A stretch of 64,000 bases of DNA from contig CAMVDX010000010.1 of NCBI GenBank assembly GCA_947166355.1, positions 20,225-84,224 of the forward strand, written 5' to 3'. Position numbers and translations under genes: made by a program. The notes below the pieces were generated by a model. That model ran no database searches. It was not told the DNA's origin and saw only the letters and a list, made by a program, of their open reading frames with translations. Below, one piece after another: positions 7,650 through 35,683 of the stretch (positions are counted from its first letter, which is position 1; each line of letters opens with the position of its first letter). The stretch is from an uncultured Treponema sp. (GTDB taxonomy: Bacteria > Spirochaetota > Spirochaetia > Treponematales > Treponemataceae).

Positions 7650-9623
7650 ATGAAACGAAAAAGAATTTGTCTTGTTACTATTGCACCTGAAGCAGAGTAT
7701 TCCCGCAGGGTGATTTCTGGTGTTCTTTCTCAGTGTAAAATATACGGTTATGATGTAGTTATTGTTTCTGCGCTTGTTTCGGTCTGTAATTATTATAAAA
7801 ATTATCTCGATGGCGAGCTTAATATTTATAAAATTATTAATTTTGATCTTTTTGATGGATTTATCATTACTCCTATTCCAATGACTGAAGACAGTAATAT
7901 GTTTCTATATGAGTCGCTTTTGAAACAATTTAAGTCCTGTTCTAAGCCTGTCGTTTCTCTTGATAAAGAATTCGGCGATTTTCCAGTAATTTACACGGAT
8001 GATAAAACTCCTTTCAAAAAAATTACAGAACATCTTATAAGAAAGCATGGTTGCCGAGATTTTGATATTCTTAGTGGCTCAGATGAATCTCCTCTTACAA
8101 AAATGCGTCTTGAAGGGATTCTTGAAACACTTGCAGAAAATAATATTCAGATTTTCGAGAATAGAATTGTCAAAGGAGATTACTGGTATTCAGGTGGTGA
8201 ACGTCTTGCTAACCGTTACATTACAGGTGAGCTTGATTTACCAGATGCTGTAATCTGTCTTTCTGATCACATGGCAATAGGTCTTGTAAGCCGTCTGGAA
8301 AAAAATAATATTCATGTTCCGGAAGATGTGATTGTGACTGGCTTTGGAGCAGTGCGCGAGGCTGCAATTAATACACCACCAATTACTTCGTTTGTTCCGT
8401 ATCAGGCAAAGACCGGAGTTGAGGCCGTAAACTATCTGCGTTCTATTATAGACCCGGCTGCTTCTGTTATTCCTTTTGATGATGAAGACGAGAATTATCT
8501 GAAAGTGGGCGCTTCCTGTGGATGTGATGAAGACTTTTCTTATACCCGTGCATATTTTCATGATGAACAATGCGGAATCAAATATAACTACGATGATACA
8601 GATGTCTGGAATCATATAAATATGACTATGCTTCAGGAAAGTTATATGGCAGAACTGCTTACCGGTGCTGAAACTCCAAAAATCTGCCTTGGTAAAATTT
8701 ACGAATCAAAATATCTGATTAAACCATATAAGCGTTTTTACATTTGTCTTAACGATAACTGGCTCAATACAGATTGTGATATAACAGAAGGTTATTCAGA
8801 AAAAATGCTTCTTGCAGTTTCTGCGGAATCGGGTTCAAAGCTGCATGGTTGGGATAATCATGTGTTTATAGGAGAGGGCAGAGAGCGTTATTTTTTAAGT
8901 CGCGAAATGCTGCCGGCCTTTGATGAAGACCAGAAGGAACAGTTTAAGGAGCCGCAGGTTTTTTATTTTACTCCGATTCACTTTGGTAATGTGAGCCTTG
9001 GATATGCTGTGCTTCAAAATGATTTGAGTGATCCTTGTTGTATCGGCGAGGTTTTTAGAAATTATCTGCGTAATATAAACAATGCCCTTGAAATGAGTCG
9101 GGCTAAATATCGTTCTACCTATCTTGCAGAACATGATTCTATGACTGGGCTTAAGAACCGTCGCGGTATGGAAAATGCTCTGGAATTCAAAATTAAAACG
9201 GCAGCGGAGAATTCAAAAATTTTTGCAATTGTAATAGATATGGACGGACTTAAAAAACGTAATGATAATCACGGCCATTCCGAAGGTGATAATGGAATCA
9301 TGCTTGTTGCAAAAGCTGTTCGCTGTATAACTGGAGATGGAGAAGTTTGTGTTCGCGGTGGCGGTGATGAGTTTTTTGTTCTCGGAGTTGGCGATTATAC
9401 TGAGCATCAGATGCGTGAAAAGCTTTCTCAGTTCCGTGGTTATCTTGAAACTGCTAATGAAACTATGAACATTCCTGTAGAAGCAAGTATTGGATATGCG
9501 CTCAAGCCTCTGGATAAGAAAGAAGGCTTTCAGGTTGTACTGGACAAAGCTGATGTTAAGATGTATGAAGATAAGCGTTCAAAAAAATCTACATCTTCTG
9601 TAAAAACTGAGGCTAAAAAATGA
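7650..9623 (+). CDS. LacI-type periplasmic-binding-like sensor domain fused to a GGDEF diguanylate cyclase
   Basis: N-terminus resembles a LacI effector domain without HTH (MKRKRICLVTIAPEAEYSRRVISGVLSQ...); C-terminus has DGLKKRNDNHGHSEGD and RGGGDEFFVLG. Confidence 0.85.
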   Translation: MKRKRICLVTIAPEAEYSRRVISGVLSQCKIYGYDVVIVSALVSVCNYYKNYLDGELNIYKIINFDLFDGFIITPIPMTEDSNMFLYESLLKQFKSCSKPVVSLDKEFGDFPVIYTDDKTPFKKITEHLIRKHGCRDFDILSGSDESPLTKMRLEGILETLAENNIQIFENRIVKGDYWYSGGERLANRYITGELDLPDAVICLSDHMAIGLVSRLEKNNIHVPEDVIVTGFGAVREAAINTPPITSFVPYQAKTGVEAVNYLRSIIDPAASVIPFDDEDENYLKVGASCGCDEDFSYTRAYFHDEQCGIKYNYDDTDVWNHINMTMLQESYMAELLTGAETPKICLGKIYESKYLIKPYKRFYICLNDNWLNTDCDITEGYSEKMLLAVSAESGSKLHGWDNHVFIGEGRERYFLSREMLPAFDEDQKEQFKEPQVFYFTPIHFGNVSLGYAVLQNDLSDPCCIGEVFRNYLRNINNALEMSRAKYRSTYLAEHDSMTGLKNRRGMENALEFKIKTAAENSKIFAIVIDMDGLKKRNDNHGHSEGDNGIMLVAKAVRCITGDGEVCVRGGGDEFFVLGVGDYTEHQMREKLSQFRGYLETANETMNIPVEASIGYALKPLDKKEGFQVVLDKADVKMYEDKRSKKSTSSVKTEAKK

Positions 9624-10462
9624 AACGAATTATTACAGTTCAGGATATTTCCTGTGTAGGAAAGTGCTCGCTCACAGTTGCGCTTCCTGTTATTTCTGCT
9701 ATGGGCGTAGAAGCCTGTGTACTTCCTACTGCGGTGCTTTCTACTCATACGGCCTTTAAAGGTTTTACTTTCCGCGATTTGACGCAGGATATTTCAAAAA
9801 TTACGGAGCACTGGAAGTCAGAAAAAATTTCTTTTGACGCAATATATACCGGCTATCTCGGTTCTTTTGAACAGATAGAATTAATGCACTCACTGATTAA
9901 GGATTTTGGCCGTGGTGGCACGCACGTAATTGTGGATCCTTGTATGGGAGATAACGGTGCACTTTATTCAGGCTTTACTCCAGATTTTGCTAAGGCTATG
10001 GCCGGTCTTTGCTCAGAGGCAGAAGTGATAGTCCCAAATCTTACTGAGGCCAGTTTTATGCTCGGTATTCCCTATATTGCAAATGGATACACAAAAGAAT
10101 ATATAGAAGATTTATTAAAAAAGCTTTCGGAGTTGGGCTCGCGTAAAGTTGTGCTTAAAGGTATTTCCTTTGATGATAAAAAACTTGGCATTGCAAGTTA
10201 TGATTCACAAACCCAGAAAATTAACTGGTATTTCCATGAAAAAATGCAGCAGAGCTTTCACGGCACGGGAGATATTTTTGCGAGTGTACTTACTGGCGCA
10301 CTTGTTCGCGGAATGTCGCTGGACAAAGCCTGCCGCCTGGCAGCAGACTTCGTAGTAGAATCAATCAAAGCAACACTTAGTCATAAGGATTATAACTGGT
10401 ACGGTGTCGATTTTGAGAGTGCTATACCATATTTGCTAAGTCAACTTTACCATTGCGAGTAG
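9620..10462 (+). CDS. pdxY: Pyridoxal/pyridoxamine kinase
   Basis: Ribokinase-like: VQDISCVGKCSLTVALPVISAMGVEACVLPTAVLSTHT, DPCMGDNG, HGTGDIFASVLTG. ATGA overlap with the preceding gene. Confidence 0.85.
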   Translation: MKRIITVQDISCVGKCSLTVALPVISAMGVEACVLPTAVLSTHTAFKGFTFRDLTQDISKITEHWKSEKISFDAIYTGYLGSFEQIELMHSLIKDFGRGGTHVIVDPCMGDNGALYSGFTPDFAKAMAGLCSEAEVIVPNLTEASFMLGIPYIANGYTKEYIEDLLKKLSELGSRKVVLKGISFDDKKLGIASYDSQTQKINWYFHEKMQQSFHGTGDIFASVLTGALVRGMSLDKACRLAADFVVESIKATLSHKDYNWYGVDFESAIPYLLSQLYHCE

Positions 10463-10482: not shown

Positions 10483-10538
10483 ATCGATGATGCTAAAATG
10501 ACCCGCTGACGCAGCTCATTTTTTAACGCATCTTCGAT
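10483..10538. repeat. Family-E hairpin downstream of pdxY
   Basis: ATCGATGATGCTAAAATGA / TCATTTTTTAACGCATCTTCGAT arms. Confidence 0.55.
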
Positions 10539-10545
10539 TGTCGGC

Positions 10546-10599
10546 GGGTACGGAGTGGACTTCGAGAGTGCTATACCATATTTATTAGATCAGATTTAA
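10546..10599 (+). pseudogene. Displaced second copy of the pdxY 3' end
   Basis: Encodes GYGVDFESAIPYLLDQI*, matching YGVDFESAIPYLLSQ at 10400-10447 with mostly synonymous differences. Confidence 0.8.
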
Positions 10600-31611: not shown

Positions 31612-31634
31612 AGATATTCAAATTGAGGATAAAA

Positions 31635-33170
31635 ATGATAGATAAGTGGGAAATTGTAATCGGTTGCGAAATTCATACTCAGCTTTTGACTAAAACCAAG
31701 GCCTTTTGTGCCTGCGAAAACCGCTACGGCGGAATGCCAGATACCCGCGTGTGTCCTGTATGTCTGGGACTTCCGGGCGCTATGCCACGTATTTCAAAAG
31801 GTTATGTAGAACTCGGAGCCGTTGCTGGTCAGGCGCTCAACTGCAATATTGCACGCTTTACAAAATTCGACCGCAAGCATTACTTTTACCCTGACCTTGC
31901 AAAAGGCTATCAGATTACTCAGTATGATATTCCACTTTGTACAGACGGTTATGTAGACCTTCCGTTCAGAAGCTACCCAAAGGATGAACAGCCGGGCGGT
32001 GCAAAGTGCCGCGAAAAGAACTTTATCGGCCAGAATTGTATCGTAGGTGATGGAAAATACCGCCGTGTCCGCGTAGAACGCATTCACCTTGAGGAAGACG
32101 TAGGTAAGTCTCTTCACCTTCAGGGCGCTCACTCTTACATCGACTACAACCGCTGTGGTACACCACTTATCGAAATTGTAACAAAACCTGATATGACTTC
32201 TCCTGAAGAAGCCGCTCTCTTTATGCAGACTGTTCAGGAAATCCTGCGTTACGTAAAGGTAACAAACGGTAACCTCGAAGAAGGTAACATGCGCTGCGAT
32301 GCCAATATCAACCTCAACGTTTGGGAAGACGGAAAGCTCTGGCACACACCAATTTCCGAAATCAAGAACCTGAACTCTTTCAAGGCAATCCGCGAGGCTT
32401 GTACTTACGAAGCACAGCGCCAGCTCAAAGAGTTCCAGGAAGACCGTCAGGAATTCAATCCTGGCTTCAAAGTTACTATGGGTTGGGATGAAGAAAAAGG
32501 ACAGACCGTTGTTCAGCGTACAAAGAACTCTTTCGTAGACTACCGCTTTACAACTGAACCTGATATTAAGCCTTTCACTGTAAGCGAAGAACTTATTGCA
32601 AACGCAAAAGAAAAGGTAGGCGAGCTTCCTGAAGCAAAACGCCAGCGCTATAAGGCTCAGTACGGCATGACAGATTTCGACGTAGAAACAATTACTTCTA
32701 CCCGCGACCTGGCTCTCTTCTTTGAAGATGCCGCAACAAAATCAAAGAATCCTAAACGCGCAGTAAACCTTATTCTTGCAGAACTCCTTGCAGTTCTCAA
32801 CGAAAAGAAAATTGCCATTACAGATATCAGCTTAACACCGGCTCACATTGCAGAGCTTGCCGATGCCCTCGAGGATGGAAAGATTACATCAAAGCAGGGT
32901 AAGGAAGTGTTCGCCGAAATGCTTGAAACAAACAAAATGCCGTCAATTATCATAAAAGAGAAGGGCATGGAAGTTGTAAGCGATGCCGGCGAAATCGATA
33001 AGATTGTTCAGGACGTAATTGCCGCTAACCCTAAGGCTATTGAAGACTACAAGGGCGGAAAGACAAATGTTGTGGGCTGGCTCATGGGGCAGGTTATGAA
33101 ACAGTCACATGGTAAGGCTAACCCTAAGCAGGCAACTGAACTGCTTACAAAACATTTGGCAGAATTATAA
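31635..33170 (+). CDS. gatB: Asp-tRNA(Asn)/Glu-tRNA(Gln) amidotransferase subunit B
   Basis: WEIVIGCEIHTQLLTKTKAFC, LEEDVGKSLH, YNRCGTPLIEIVT, EEGNMRCDANINL, C-terminal GatB tail. Confidence 0.96.
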   Translation: MIDKWEIVIGCEIHTQLLTKTKAFCACENRYGGMPDTRVCPVCLGLPGAMPRISKGYVELGAVAGQALNCNIARFTKFDRKHYFYPDLAKGYQITQYDIPLCTDGYVDLPFRSYPKDEQPGGAKCREKNFIGQNCIVGDGKYRRVRVERIHLEEDVGKSLHLQGAHSYIDYNRCGTPLIEIVTKPDMTSPEEAALFMQTVQEILRYVKVTNGNLEEGNMRCDANINLNVWEDGKLWHTPISEIKNLNSFKAIREACTYEAQRQLKEFQEDRQEFNPGFKVTMGWDEEKGQTVVQRTKNSFVDYRFTTEPDIKPFTVSEELIANAKEKVGELPEAKRQRYKAQYGMTDFDVETITSTRDLALFFEDAATKSKNPKRAVNLILAELLAVLNEKKIAITDISLTPAHIAELADALEDGKITSKQGKEVFAEMLETNKMPSIIIKEKGMEVVSDAGEIDKIVQDVIAANPKAIEDYKGGKTNVVGWLMGQVMKQSHGKANPKQATELLTKHLAEL

Positions 33171-33215
33171 CCTGCCCCATTTCATGGGACCGCTCGATAA
33201 ATCTCGCGAGCATTT

Positions 33216-33270
33216 CAGAAGTAGAAGCTAAAAAACAGTCCCGATGGACTGTTTTTTTTAACGCTTCTGC
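33216..33270. repeat. Family-E hairpin downstream of gatB
   Basis: AGAAGTAGAAGCTAAAAAACAGTCC-CGAT-GGACTGTTTTTTTTAACGCTTCTGC. Confidence 0.65.
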
Positions 33271-33278
33271 TATTTGAG

Positions 33279-33359
33279 CAGGTTATGAAGCAGTCTCACG
33301 GTAAAGCTAACCCTAAGCAGGCAACAGAACTTCTTAATAAACATCTTGCAGCATTGTAA
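33279..33359 (+). pseudogene. Displaced second copy of the gatB 3' end
   Basis: 81 nt encoding QVMKQSHGKANPKQATELLNKHLAAL*, same length as 33090-33170; 12 nt differences by my count, mostly synonymous. Confidence 0.9.
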
Positions 33360-33362
33360 GTT

Positions 33363-33435
33363 GGTTTCGATACACCGCTAACGCGGCACTCAACCAACGG
33401 TGGTTGAGTAGGCCGAAGGCCGTATCGAAACCACC
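33363..33435. repeat. Paired family-C repeats
   Basis: GGTTTCGATACACCGCTAACGCGGCACTCAACCAACGGTGGTTGAGTAGGCCGAAGGCCGTATCGAAACCACC. Confidence 0.85.
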
Positions 33436-33436
33436 A

Positions 33437-35683
33437 TTACGAATGCAGTTTAATAAACTGTACGAAGTCCTGTTCAGACAGCGGGCGGGAATAGAAGAAT
33501 CCTTGTGCCTGGTCGCATTCAATTGAGCGCAGAAAATCTCTTTGTGCCTGAGTTTCGACACCTTCAAAAACCGTCTGCTTATCAAGATTTTTGCTCAAAT
33601 CAATCAGAATATGAATGAACTTTTCTGATTTTTTATCAATACGCCCTTCTTCATCTGTAGAGGCATCCAGAAATTCCCGGTCAAACTTTAATACATCAAC
33701 TGGAATTTTTGTGAGCATATTAAGAGAAGATTCCCCGCTTCCAAAATCATCCATTGCAACTGTAAAGCCTTCTTTATGCAGTTTTTCTGTAATATCCTGA
33801 AGTGTAGTGTTATCCATTACGGAGCGTTCCAGAATTTCAAGCTGAATAAGATTTGCCGGAATAGAATATTTATTGAAAATTTCCATAAAGTCGTGCATGA
33901 ATTTTTCCGGGCGGTTATGATTACGTGACATATTTACAGAAATCGGTACAACCGGCTGTCCCTTTGAAAGTCTGCCCTGAATGAATTTAAAAACTTCTTC
34001 ATAAACATAATAGTCAAGCTTTGTGATAAAACCATTGCGTTCAAAAAGCGGAATGAATTTATCTGGTGTTAAAAGGCCGAACTTCGGACTGTTCCAGCGA
34101 ACAAGTGCTTCTGCTCCGACAATCTTATCATCTGCAAGCGATATTTTTGGCTGATACATTACAAAAAACTCTTTATCATCAAGAGCCTGCTGCATATGGC
34201 CTTCTATAAAGCGTTCTTCATTGATTTTTTCCAGAAGCTTGGAGTTATAAATTGAATATTGAGTTAAAAGATTGTCTTTTATAGTGCTTTTTGCAAAAGA
34301 GGCTTGACCTATAAGACTCTGGATTGTAGTTTTTTTAGAATTGTCGCCCGGCATATGAAAGGAAACACCAAATTTTGGGAAGAACGGAAGTTCATAGTTT
34401 TTCAGTTCTTCTGAAAATTCATTTATAACATCCTTAAAAGTAGCCATCGCTTTATGAACAGAAGAAATTTTAATAAGAACATAAAAGTGATCTGCAAAGC
34501 CTCTTCCTATAATTGCATGATAACCGCTTATAAAATTGTTTAAGGCCTTTGAATAATAAAGAATCAGTTTATCAGCTGCTTCTTCTCCATAATTCTGATT
34601 GATGAATTTGAAGCCACGTATATCTGCTTCTATAAGCATGAATTTTGCCTTTGGATAAGTTCTCATCATTTTTGCAGCTTCTTTTTCAAAACGCTGTCTT
34701 GTCCAAAGATTTGTAAGAGGATCATATACAGTAGCAATAATTTGCTTGCGCTGGAAAAAGTCCAGGACTTTTGCTTCTATAAATACAAGCAAAACAATTA
34801 TTAAAAATGAAATAATCACAAGCATTAGTTTTTGTCTTTTTTCAGGAGTGTAGATATTTTCAATATCTGTCATAGGAACTTTTATTGCAAGAGTCCAGCC
34901 AGTTTCAGGAATTCTGATTGTCATAAGATACATAAGATTTCCTGCATCATCAATTGTTTTCACAATGGTTGATTTTTTCTGTGCTATATCATGTGAGCCA
35001 GTACCTTTATATTCTTCGTTTTCAGGAGTGTAGGAATGTCCGATAACATCTTTACGCGGGTGAACCATAAAAATACCCTGCCTGTCACAAATCATAAAGG
35101 AATCTTTTGTTCCAAATTTTATTCCAAGAATTTTTTGGGCAAAACTGTCTGTTTTTACAGAGGCTCCGATTACTCCTATTAAGCGATTGTTATTATCATA
35201 AACTGCTTCTTCAACTGCAAAGGTCATTGCCTTTGTTCCGGGCAAATTTCCTAAATCACTAAAGTAATATTTTTGCTTTCCCAGTAACCCCGGATGCTTT
35301 TGAACATGCATTTTTACTTCAGCACCACTTGATAAAATTGCGTTTCCTTCTAAATCAACAAAATATATTCCAAGAAATGAATCATCCATTCTGTAAGAGT
35401 ATTTATGGAAGAAATCTTTTATAACTTCTTTGTTACCTTCGTTAAAAAATTCATCTGCATAAAAAGCATGCAATGAGCTCCTGTAGCTTGCAAGCTGAAG
35501 AGATACGATTTTCTGATAACCTTCTATTGTTTTTTCGAGACTTTCAAAATACTGTGATTCTGCTTTTTTTAAGAAATGATTAGTAAAAAGACTGGAAAGA
35601 GTAAGCACAATAAGCATGAATACAGAGGCTACAAGCAGTGTTGAGATTATTTTTGCTTTTTCGGGCGAAATTGATTTTTTCAC
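33437..35683 (-). CDS. Membrane sensor (Cache-like) with degenerate GGDEF and EAL phosphodiesterase domain
   Basis: TM, extracytoplasmic region, TM; MYQPKISLADDKIVGAEALVRW, MDDFGSGESSLNML; GRGFADHFYVLI replaces GGDEF. Confidence 0.9.
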   Translation of the reverse strand: MKKSISPEKAKIISTLLVASVFMLIVLTLSSLFTNHFLKKAESQYFESLEKTIEGYQKIVSLQLASYRSSLHAFYADEFFNEGNKEVIKDFFHKYSYRMDDSFLGIYFVDLEGNAILSSGAEVKMHVQKHPGLLGKQKYYFSDLGNLPGTKAMTFAVEEAVYDNNNRLIGVIGASVKTDSFAQKILGIKFGTKDSFMICDRQGIFMVHPRKDVIGHSYTPENEEYKGTGSHDIAQKKSTIVKTIDDAGNLMYLMTIRIPETGWTLAIKVPMTDIENIYTPEKRQKLMLVIISFLIIVLLVFIEAKVLDFFQRKQIIATVYDPLTNLWTRQRFEKEAAKMMRTYPKAKFMLIEADIRGFKFINQNYGEEAADKLILYYSKALNNFISGYHAIIGRGFADHFYVLIKISSVHKAMATFKDVINEFSEELKNYELPFFPKFGVSFHMPGDNSKKTTIQSLIGQASFAKSTIKDNLLTQYSIYNSKLLEKINEERFIEGHMQQALDDKEFFVMYQPKISLADDKIVGAEALVRWNSPKFGLLTPDKFIPLFERNGFITKLDYYVYEEVFKFIQGRLSKGQPVVPISVNMSRNHNRPEKFMHDFMEIFNKYSIPANLIQLEILERSVMDNTTLQDITEKLHKEGFTVAMDDFGSGESSLNMLTKIPVDVLKFDREFLDASTDEEGRIDKKSEKFIHILIDLSKNLDKQTVFEGVETQAQRDFLRSIECDQAQGFFYSRPLSEQDFVQFIKLHS

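Follow-up and report, generated by a model that had tools for sequence, protein, structure and literature searches.

Candidate gene-less hairpin units and displaced 3′ ends of gatB and other genes in rumen Treponema

The window analysed here is a stretch of 64,000 nucleotides (G000:C10:20225-84224) from a Treponema MAG near T. bryantii that is 89% complete. On its forward strand, which also carries the features of the gatB and pdxK-like loci described below, gatB (31623..33170) encodes subunit B of the Asp/Glu-tRNA amidotransferase and consists of a native body whose final 27 codons are replaced, as seen from the ORF list and a mosaic test. These 81 nucleotides are present twice, namely as tail 1 (33090..33170), the incoming functional gatB 3′ end, and as tail 2 (33279..33359), the displaced native end including its stop codon, which is assigned from the layout in relatives, the mosaic test and a tree. 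The copies align without gaps and both terminate in TAA. In agreement with the initial annotation they differ at 12 of 81 nucleotides and in 10 codons, eight of which are changed synonymously; the two protein-changing differences are T20N and E25A.

The target site X (ATGGGGCAGGTTAT, 33084..33097) spans the insertion point CA|GG. Its 14-nt inverted copy, already noticed in the initial annotation and confirmed here as exact, is the segment X′ (33167..33180), the reverse complement of target positions -8 to +6 relative to the insertion point. X′ overlaps a fold-back CCCAT-TTC-ATGGG (33176..33188), which contains the left half of the target in both orientations, was found by folding and is present in the yak copy of the locus as well. 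It is followed by a left hairpin (GCTCG-ATAAATCTCG-CGAGC, 33192..33211), recognized from sequence and fold, and by a right hairpin (RE, 33221..33270) comprising stem1 GTAGAAGC/GCTTCTGC, the asymmetric pair CTAAAA/TTTTAACG and a variable apical hairpin, as defined by an alignment of 49 sequences, covariation and the covariance model R1. The right end of the element, TATTTGAGCA, occupies 33271..33280, with the junction CA|GG after 33280. According to the ORF list the spacer of about 108 bp between the tails harbors no ORF. The inserted segment had initially been put at only about 108 bp, which holds for the hairpin part, whereas the whole unit amounts to about 190 bp (new tail of 81 plus about 108). 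Folding of the strand between 33165 and 33290 gives three arms, with X′ and the beginning of tail 2 forming the closing stem; the energy is -30.5 kcal/mol versus -10.4 +/- 2.5 for shuffles (z = -8.1). Immediately 3′ of the displaced tail, positions 33360-33437 are occupied by a palindromic repeat (GTTGGTTTCGATACACCGC...) with about 50 matches elsewhere in the genome, which is also located behind gatB in XBD1002 and NK4A124.

A gatB match was obtained in 92 of the 98 genus genomes searched, and alignment of the 3′ regions depicts a single tail in the relatives. Tail 1 is identical to a water-deer Treponema MAG (L104) at 79 of 81 positions (98%), other relatives differing at 11-24 sites, while the gatB body shares about 90% identity with L104, a value not above that of other relatives. 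The closest upstream mismatch to L104 lies 3 nt ahead of the target/insertion-point motif. In the trees tail 1 clusters with L104 (bootstrap 97%), and the window's gatB body is placed elsewhere. Tail 2 together with the palindromic repeat just after its stop is arranged as in T. bryantii XBD1002 and NK4A124, which have the native layout. As tail 1 resembles L104 with a break at the insertion point and tail 2 is native, a foreign 3′ end was inserted at the gatB insertion point and the native end was displaced, just as had been proposed from the window alone; the foreign origin of tail 1 was tested for gatB only.

The same arrangement of gatB is found in an independent yak-rumen MAG (L043/L150), and other genes show it in other assemblies, including the two-contig G077 and the four-contig G042, so the gatB duplication is not an assembly slip of one genome. 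A plain tandem copy of the gene end, or an error of assembly, would account for the close proximity of the two copies, but is scarcely credible in view of the foreign tail 1 and native tail 2 of gatB, the nearly exclusively synonymous differences and the recurrence in independent assemblies, near-complete ones included.

Eleven tail pairs of protein genes contain 71 synonymous versus 7 non-synonymous codon differences, whereas random changes would be 77% non-synonymous (p = 5e-38). Because the differences are overwhelmingly synonymous, the displaced tails spent most of their history inside working genes, and for gatB, where the native layout is seen in addition, the initial view of a copy that evolved within a functional gene and was later displaced is borne out. 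Either the units were inserted recently, or exchange continues between alleles that have the unit and alleles that lack it. Diversity-generating retroelements likewise have a second gene 3′ end behind a hairpin. As a candidate they were rejected since the tail differences are not A-specific; unlike in these systems, the changes between the tails are synonymous and no reverse transcriptase is seen nearby. Closer in outcome are fungal mitochondrial endonuclease ORFs, which supply a new C-terminal end to atp6, atp9, cox2 and nad3 in Allomyces, Rhizopus and Glomus (PMC3630166). In those hybrids, as here, a foreign tail (in our case that of gatB) completes the gene, the displaced native end is closest to relatives, and changes are mostly synonymous. 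The mitochondrial elements encode an endonuclease of the LAGLIDADG or GIY-YIG type. The Treponema units, by contrast, are non-coding with no ORF between the tails; they use many genes, tRNA genes among them, possess a segment complementary to the target and occur in arrays.

In an unbiased scan the last codons of 930 ORFs were compared with their own downstream DNA, covering 1.24 of 3.25 Mb (38% of the window's genome). On the protein level gatB (122) and a pdxK-like gene (75) rank as the top two, with a shuffled maximum of 42. On the DNA level the downstream regions of other genes served as null; against these the best score is 14 (916 ORFs) as compared to 55.8 for gatB, and chance is excluded as the source of the gatB duplication. 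Further genes with a second copy of their own 3′ end were found within the 1.24 Mb, namely the pdxK-like gene (30.0), ilvC (23.6), asnS (21.4) and argB (17.4), next to an ABC-transporter gene (L259, 19.8). The matches of gatB, ilvC, asnS, L259 and argB end at the stop codon, that of the pdxK-like gene does not. L294 and L289 also score above the null, but their matches look repetitive or spurious; L293, with a weak 15.6, has the appearance of a tandem gene family. Behind asnS, ilvC and argB a second, double-hairpin family is located, ilvC and argB each containing three successive tails; gdhA (L002) has its third tail behind this type as well. The strict double-hairpin motif has 7 matches in 1.24 Mb (one site counted twice), all except that of L278 at duplicated tails. 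The family (e.g. GCGAGTTTGCGAAGCAAACTCGTTAGTAAAATTGCGTGAGCAATTTTACGAC; L250, L245, L266, L242, G000:C1) is nearly confined to duplicated gene ends (asnS, ilvC, argB, gdhA). L259 displays a third hairpin type, which probably behaves likewise.

Beyond what the initial annotation could see, the gatB case is one of a large family of hairpin elements. Their layout is target, new tail, X′, left hairpin, right hairpin (CTAAAA…TTTTAACG), about 9 nt and the junction with the old tail. It recurs in many Treponema assemblies and is found in gatB (2 genomes), gdhA (4 genomes with two tails), topA and pdxK, and in genes for tRNA-Pro, tRNA-Val, tRNA-Leu and tRNA-Glu. When the region was compared with its own genome by blast, the hairpin turned up behind gdhA as well, likewise accompanied by a second tail, and a genus-wide pattern search added the yak gatB, gdhA of G194 and two tRNA genes. 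The gdhA genes of G026 and G025 carry the layout too, a remnant is found in G016, and tRNA-Pro(TGG) units are present in five genomes. The unit of the pdxK-like kinase gene is the second instance in the same window; here tail 1 forms the 3′ end of the gene (9620..10462), followed by the right hairpin (CGATGATGC...GCATCTTCG, 10485..10536) and tail 2 (YGVDFESAIPYLLDQI plus stop, 10546..10599), which differs from tail 1 by 7 synonymous and 2 non-synonymous codons among 16 compared. All copies obtained are 100-400 bp long with left and right hairpins intact. Tandem arrays of two to six units are observed at tRNA-Glu, tRNA-Pro(CGG), tRNA-Val and tRNA-Leu, some including bare hairpin units devoid of tails; in arrays the gene-adjacent unit is the newest and older tails lie further downstream. 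Comparison of gdhA in G000 and G194 depicts an almost identical hairpin part but a tail 1 that differs at 7 of 66 sites, hence tail and hairpin do not always travel together. No pair of empty and occupied sites was seen inside one species.

Likewise beyond the initial reading, complementarity to the target is a general property of the segment seen as an inverted repeat in gatB. Of 12 cases tested, 10 have an X′ that pairs with its own target across the junction over 9-16 nt (shuffle p <= 0.004); the 14 nt of gatB were reached in 0 of 2000 shuffles. With other targets X′ pairs over 3-8 nt, except for relatives of the same or similar genes. In gdhA it tracks the local codons, AGCGCCAGC facing GCTGGCGCT in G000 and AGCACCAGCTAC facing GTAGCTGGTGCT in G026. 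X′ is decayed or missing in pdxK, gdhA of G025, tRNA-Leu and tRNA-Glu and is thus not strictly needed for persistence. No core sequence common to the compared targets was found.

The alignment of the right hairpin comprises 49 distinct copies. Stem1 positions 1-4 are paired in all 49, and at positions 2 and 3 G-C, C-G, A-T and T-A pairs occur, that is, compensatory changes. By eye, an extra outer stem enclosing the spacer is visible at the hairpin base. Of 121 order-wide genomes searched with the covariance model, six contain 20 to 43 copies, three contain one to four and 112 none, the last group including many of the same genus; this patchy distribution fits a mobile family. In the window's genome about 35 copies are not accompanied by a tail duplication and often lie antisense immediately behind stop codons. 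Rfam yielded no family match to the region, only tRNA and one sub-threshold chance match; the hairpin part is unmatched in plasmid and phage collections, and in G077 the hairpin copies show no replication-strand bias.

Taken as a whole, these features are probably best explained by non-autonomous, hairpin-ended units that home to gene 3′ ends and are moved in trans. The gatB locus would represent one non-coding unit of the order replacement tail, X′, left hairpin, right hairpin, CA, inserted close to the 3′ end of its target gene at one defined position. As the unit's own tail would complete the gene, the insertion would be harmless and the resident tail would come to lie behind the hairpins. 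Each target (gatB, gdhA, topA, tRNA-Pro and others) would have its own unit, and arrays would arise by repeated insertion or local amplification. We infer that the unit may act in folded, single-stranded form. X′ would pair with target sequence on both sides of the junction and could also close a stem over both hairpins; the strand would be cut at a fixed distance past the right hairpin, and a trans-acting recombinase would join it to the target, in possible analogy to single-strand attC cassettes or folded attP sites. An excised circle would have the junction TTTGAGCA|tail 1. Later homologous exchange between occupied and empty alleles would keep both tails coding-like. Points that count against this reading are the decayed or missing X′ of several units, the separate histories of tail and hairpin in gdhA, the lack of strand bias in G077, the roughly 35 copies that have no duplicated tail, and the failure to find a moving enzyme.

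The main rival dispenses with a dedicated enzyme. DNA of a related strain, consisting of a tail and the hairpin terminator following it, would be joined by homology on the left and by microhomology or template switching on the right, a stalled polymerase leaving at the hairpin and resuming where it left, with X′ as a short templated inverted insertion. Short inverted insertions of this kind are typical of template switching, hairpin elements are often located immediately behind stop codons, and at least two unrelated hairpin families, probably also the third one (L259), act alike. However, within the hairpin family the right boundary is constant, about 9 nt past the right hairpin at many targets, X′ occupies the same place in several genes and follows the target of each genome, and four or more lineages share one gdhA insertion position. 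We regard the enzyme-free route as somewhat unlikely and retain the trans-mobilized units as the favored explanation.

No moving enzyme was found, the candidates tested being Y1 transposases and IntI. The IS200/IS605 and REP/RAYT systems resemble the units in two subterminal imperfect hairpins, a right end at constant distance from the hairpin, a guide beside the left hairpin that acts by base pairing, and the lack of a short target duplication. They differ from the Treponema units, which have no associated Y1 transposase, possess a guide of 9-16 nt matching the target gene, and bring a replacement tail. TnpA of IS200/605 was rejected as mover: the window's genome contains a lone IS200, and no Y1 gene is flanked by the hairpins. 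Y1 genes are present in 26 of 98 genus genomes, and 30 Y1 loci (87.6 kb) are devoid of the right hairpin, about 2 being expected by chance; the element-bearing G048, G063, G053, G008 and G026 have no Y1.

In an integron-like scheme the right hairpin would be a divergent attC and the units 'tail cassettes' moved by IntI. Integron cassettes are similar in being hairpin-ended units with a fixed crossover near the hairpin base and in forming tandem arrays, and the hairpin with its unpaired spacer and mismatches is reminiscent of attC. Moreover IntI (TIGR02249, 400.7 bits at a cut-off of 265) is encoded in the element-rich G077, G042, G129 and G098, as well as in G048, G025 and G194. On the other hand, it was not found in the 89% complete genome of the window nor in the element-rich G110, it is also common in genomes without right hairpins, and the 15-16 kb around intI of G042 and G077 do not contain the right-hairpin core. 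A canonical attC was rejected, as the 49-hairpin alignment lacks the R boxes (RYYYAAC/GTTRRRY, crossover G^TT) that are present in the canonical attC beside intI of the same genus (e.g. GCATAAC...GTTATGC). Unlike cassettes, the units have no R box at the junction, use gene 3′ ends instead of attI and carry the end of the target gene as cargo. This scheme is considered unlikely. The integron integrases L361 and L362 (of G129 and G077) possess an N-terminal extension of about 80 residues.

The initial annotation had likened gatB to integrative elements that target gene 3′ ends. This likeness holds in so far as the 3′ end is restored and the old end is kept as the far repeat, but not with respect to coding content, the units having no ORF and no encoded or flanking integrase. 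In Dehalococcoides, ssrA islands accumulate in tandem with gene 3′ ends as direct repeats (PMC3146451). tRNA/tmRNA islands agree with the units in the restored 3′ end, the old ends forming downstream direct repeats, the newest copy being gene-adjacent and a conserved motif just upstream of the repeats. Islands, however, span kilobases, encode a recombinase and use one target, whereas the Treponema units are gene-less, about 100-400 bp long and occupy many unrelated targets. The units might be relics of such islands that lost integrase and cargo, as the tandem accretion suggests; this is very doubtful, since the 100-400 bp copies retain both hairpins, no large element with such ends was found, and the targets have no common core. 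An autonomous partner was sought beside the G053 tRNA-Pro unit and rejected, the neighboring ICE having its own, different att core. This ICE-like element (L209, G053:C19), with ParA, ParB, SSB and a very large helicase/methylase-like protein, resides in tRNA-Pro next to the hairpin unit.

Small size and lack of coding capacity separate the units from known 3′-end-targeting islands, and a limited literature search yielded no description of such gene-less miniature units. They may, more tentatively, constitute protein-less homing elements new to bacteria, combining an X′ guide with a spare 3′ end, moved in trans by a recombinase, and repeatedly rewriting the C-termini and the tRNA 3′ halves of the host, with successive older ends left downstream as dated layers. 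The findings indicate that the last codons of essential housekeeping genes and tRNA 3′ halves are replaced horizontally by gene-less elements of 100-400 bp, the foreign tail being established for gatB. The displaced tails form a fossil record in which events are datable and donors traceable. Should X′ be a guide, the units would amount to small insertion elements that can be programmed, a short stretch of base pairing determining their target.

Several tRNA loci display further arrangements. In the window's genome (L159, G000:C1 ~215907-216272) three tandem tRNA-Arg-like copies with a 166-bp period are each broken near the anticodon by the right hairpin, an intact tRNA-Arg(CCT) being located downstream. 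tRNA-Pro(CGG)-like half genes, interrupted by or situated behind a hairpin, are found in L202/L350 (G000:C51), L345 (G110:C10) and L208 (G063:C10); here the intact tRNA-Pro(CGG) lies downstream, which is the reverse order compared to T-arm insertions. In L123 (1500-1530) and L211 (480-620) tRNA-like genes are broken by a different hairpin (ACAGTCC-N4-GGACTGT / GGACTAT) and are possibly decoys or pseudogenes. The tRNA-Pro units of G063 (L210, 4600-5400) contain another hairpin-like insert (AAGGGATTTGAAGCGGAGTGAGCG...GTAACGC), which begins with an inverted copy of the tRNA 3′ end and finishes with a direct one. In the tRNA-Leu(CAA) array of G077 (L348) the displaced tails (GTTCAAGTCACCACTCC) would not pair with the present 5′ T-stem, which suggests that they derive from a different tRNA-Leu version.
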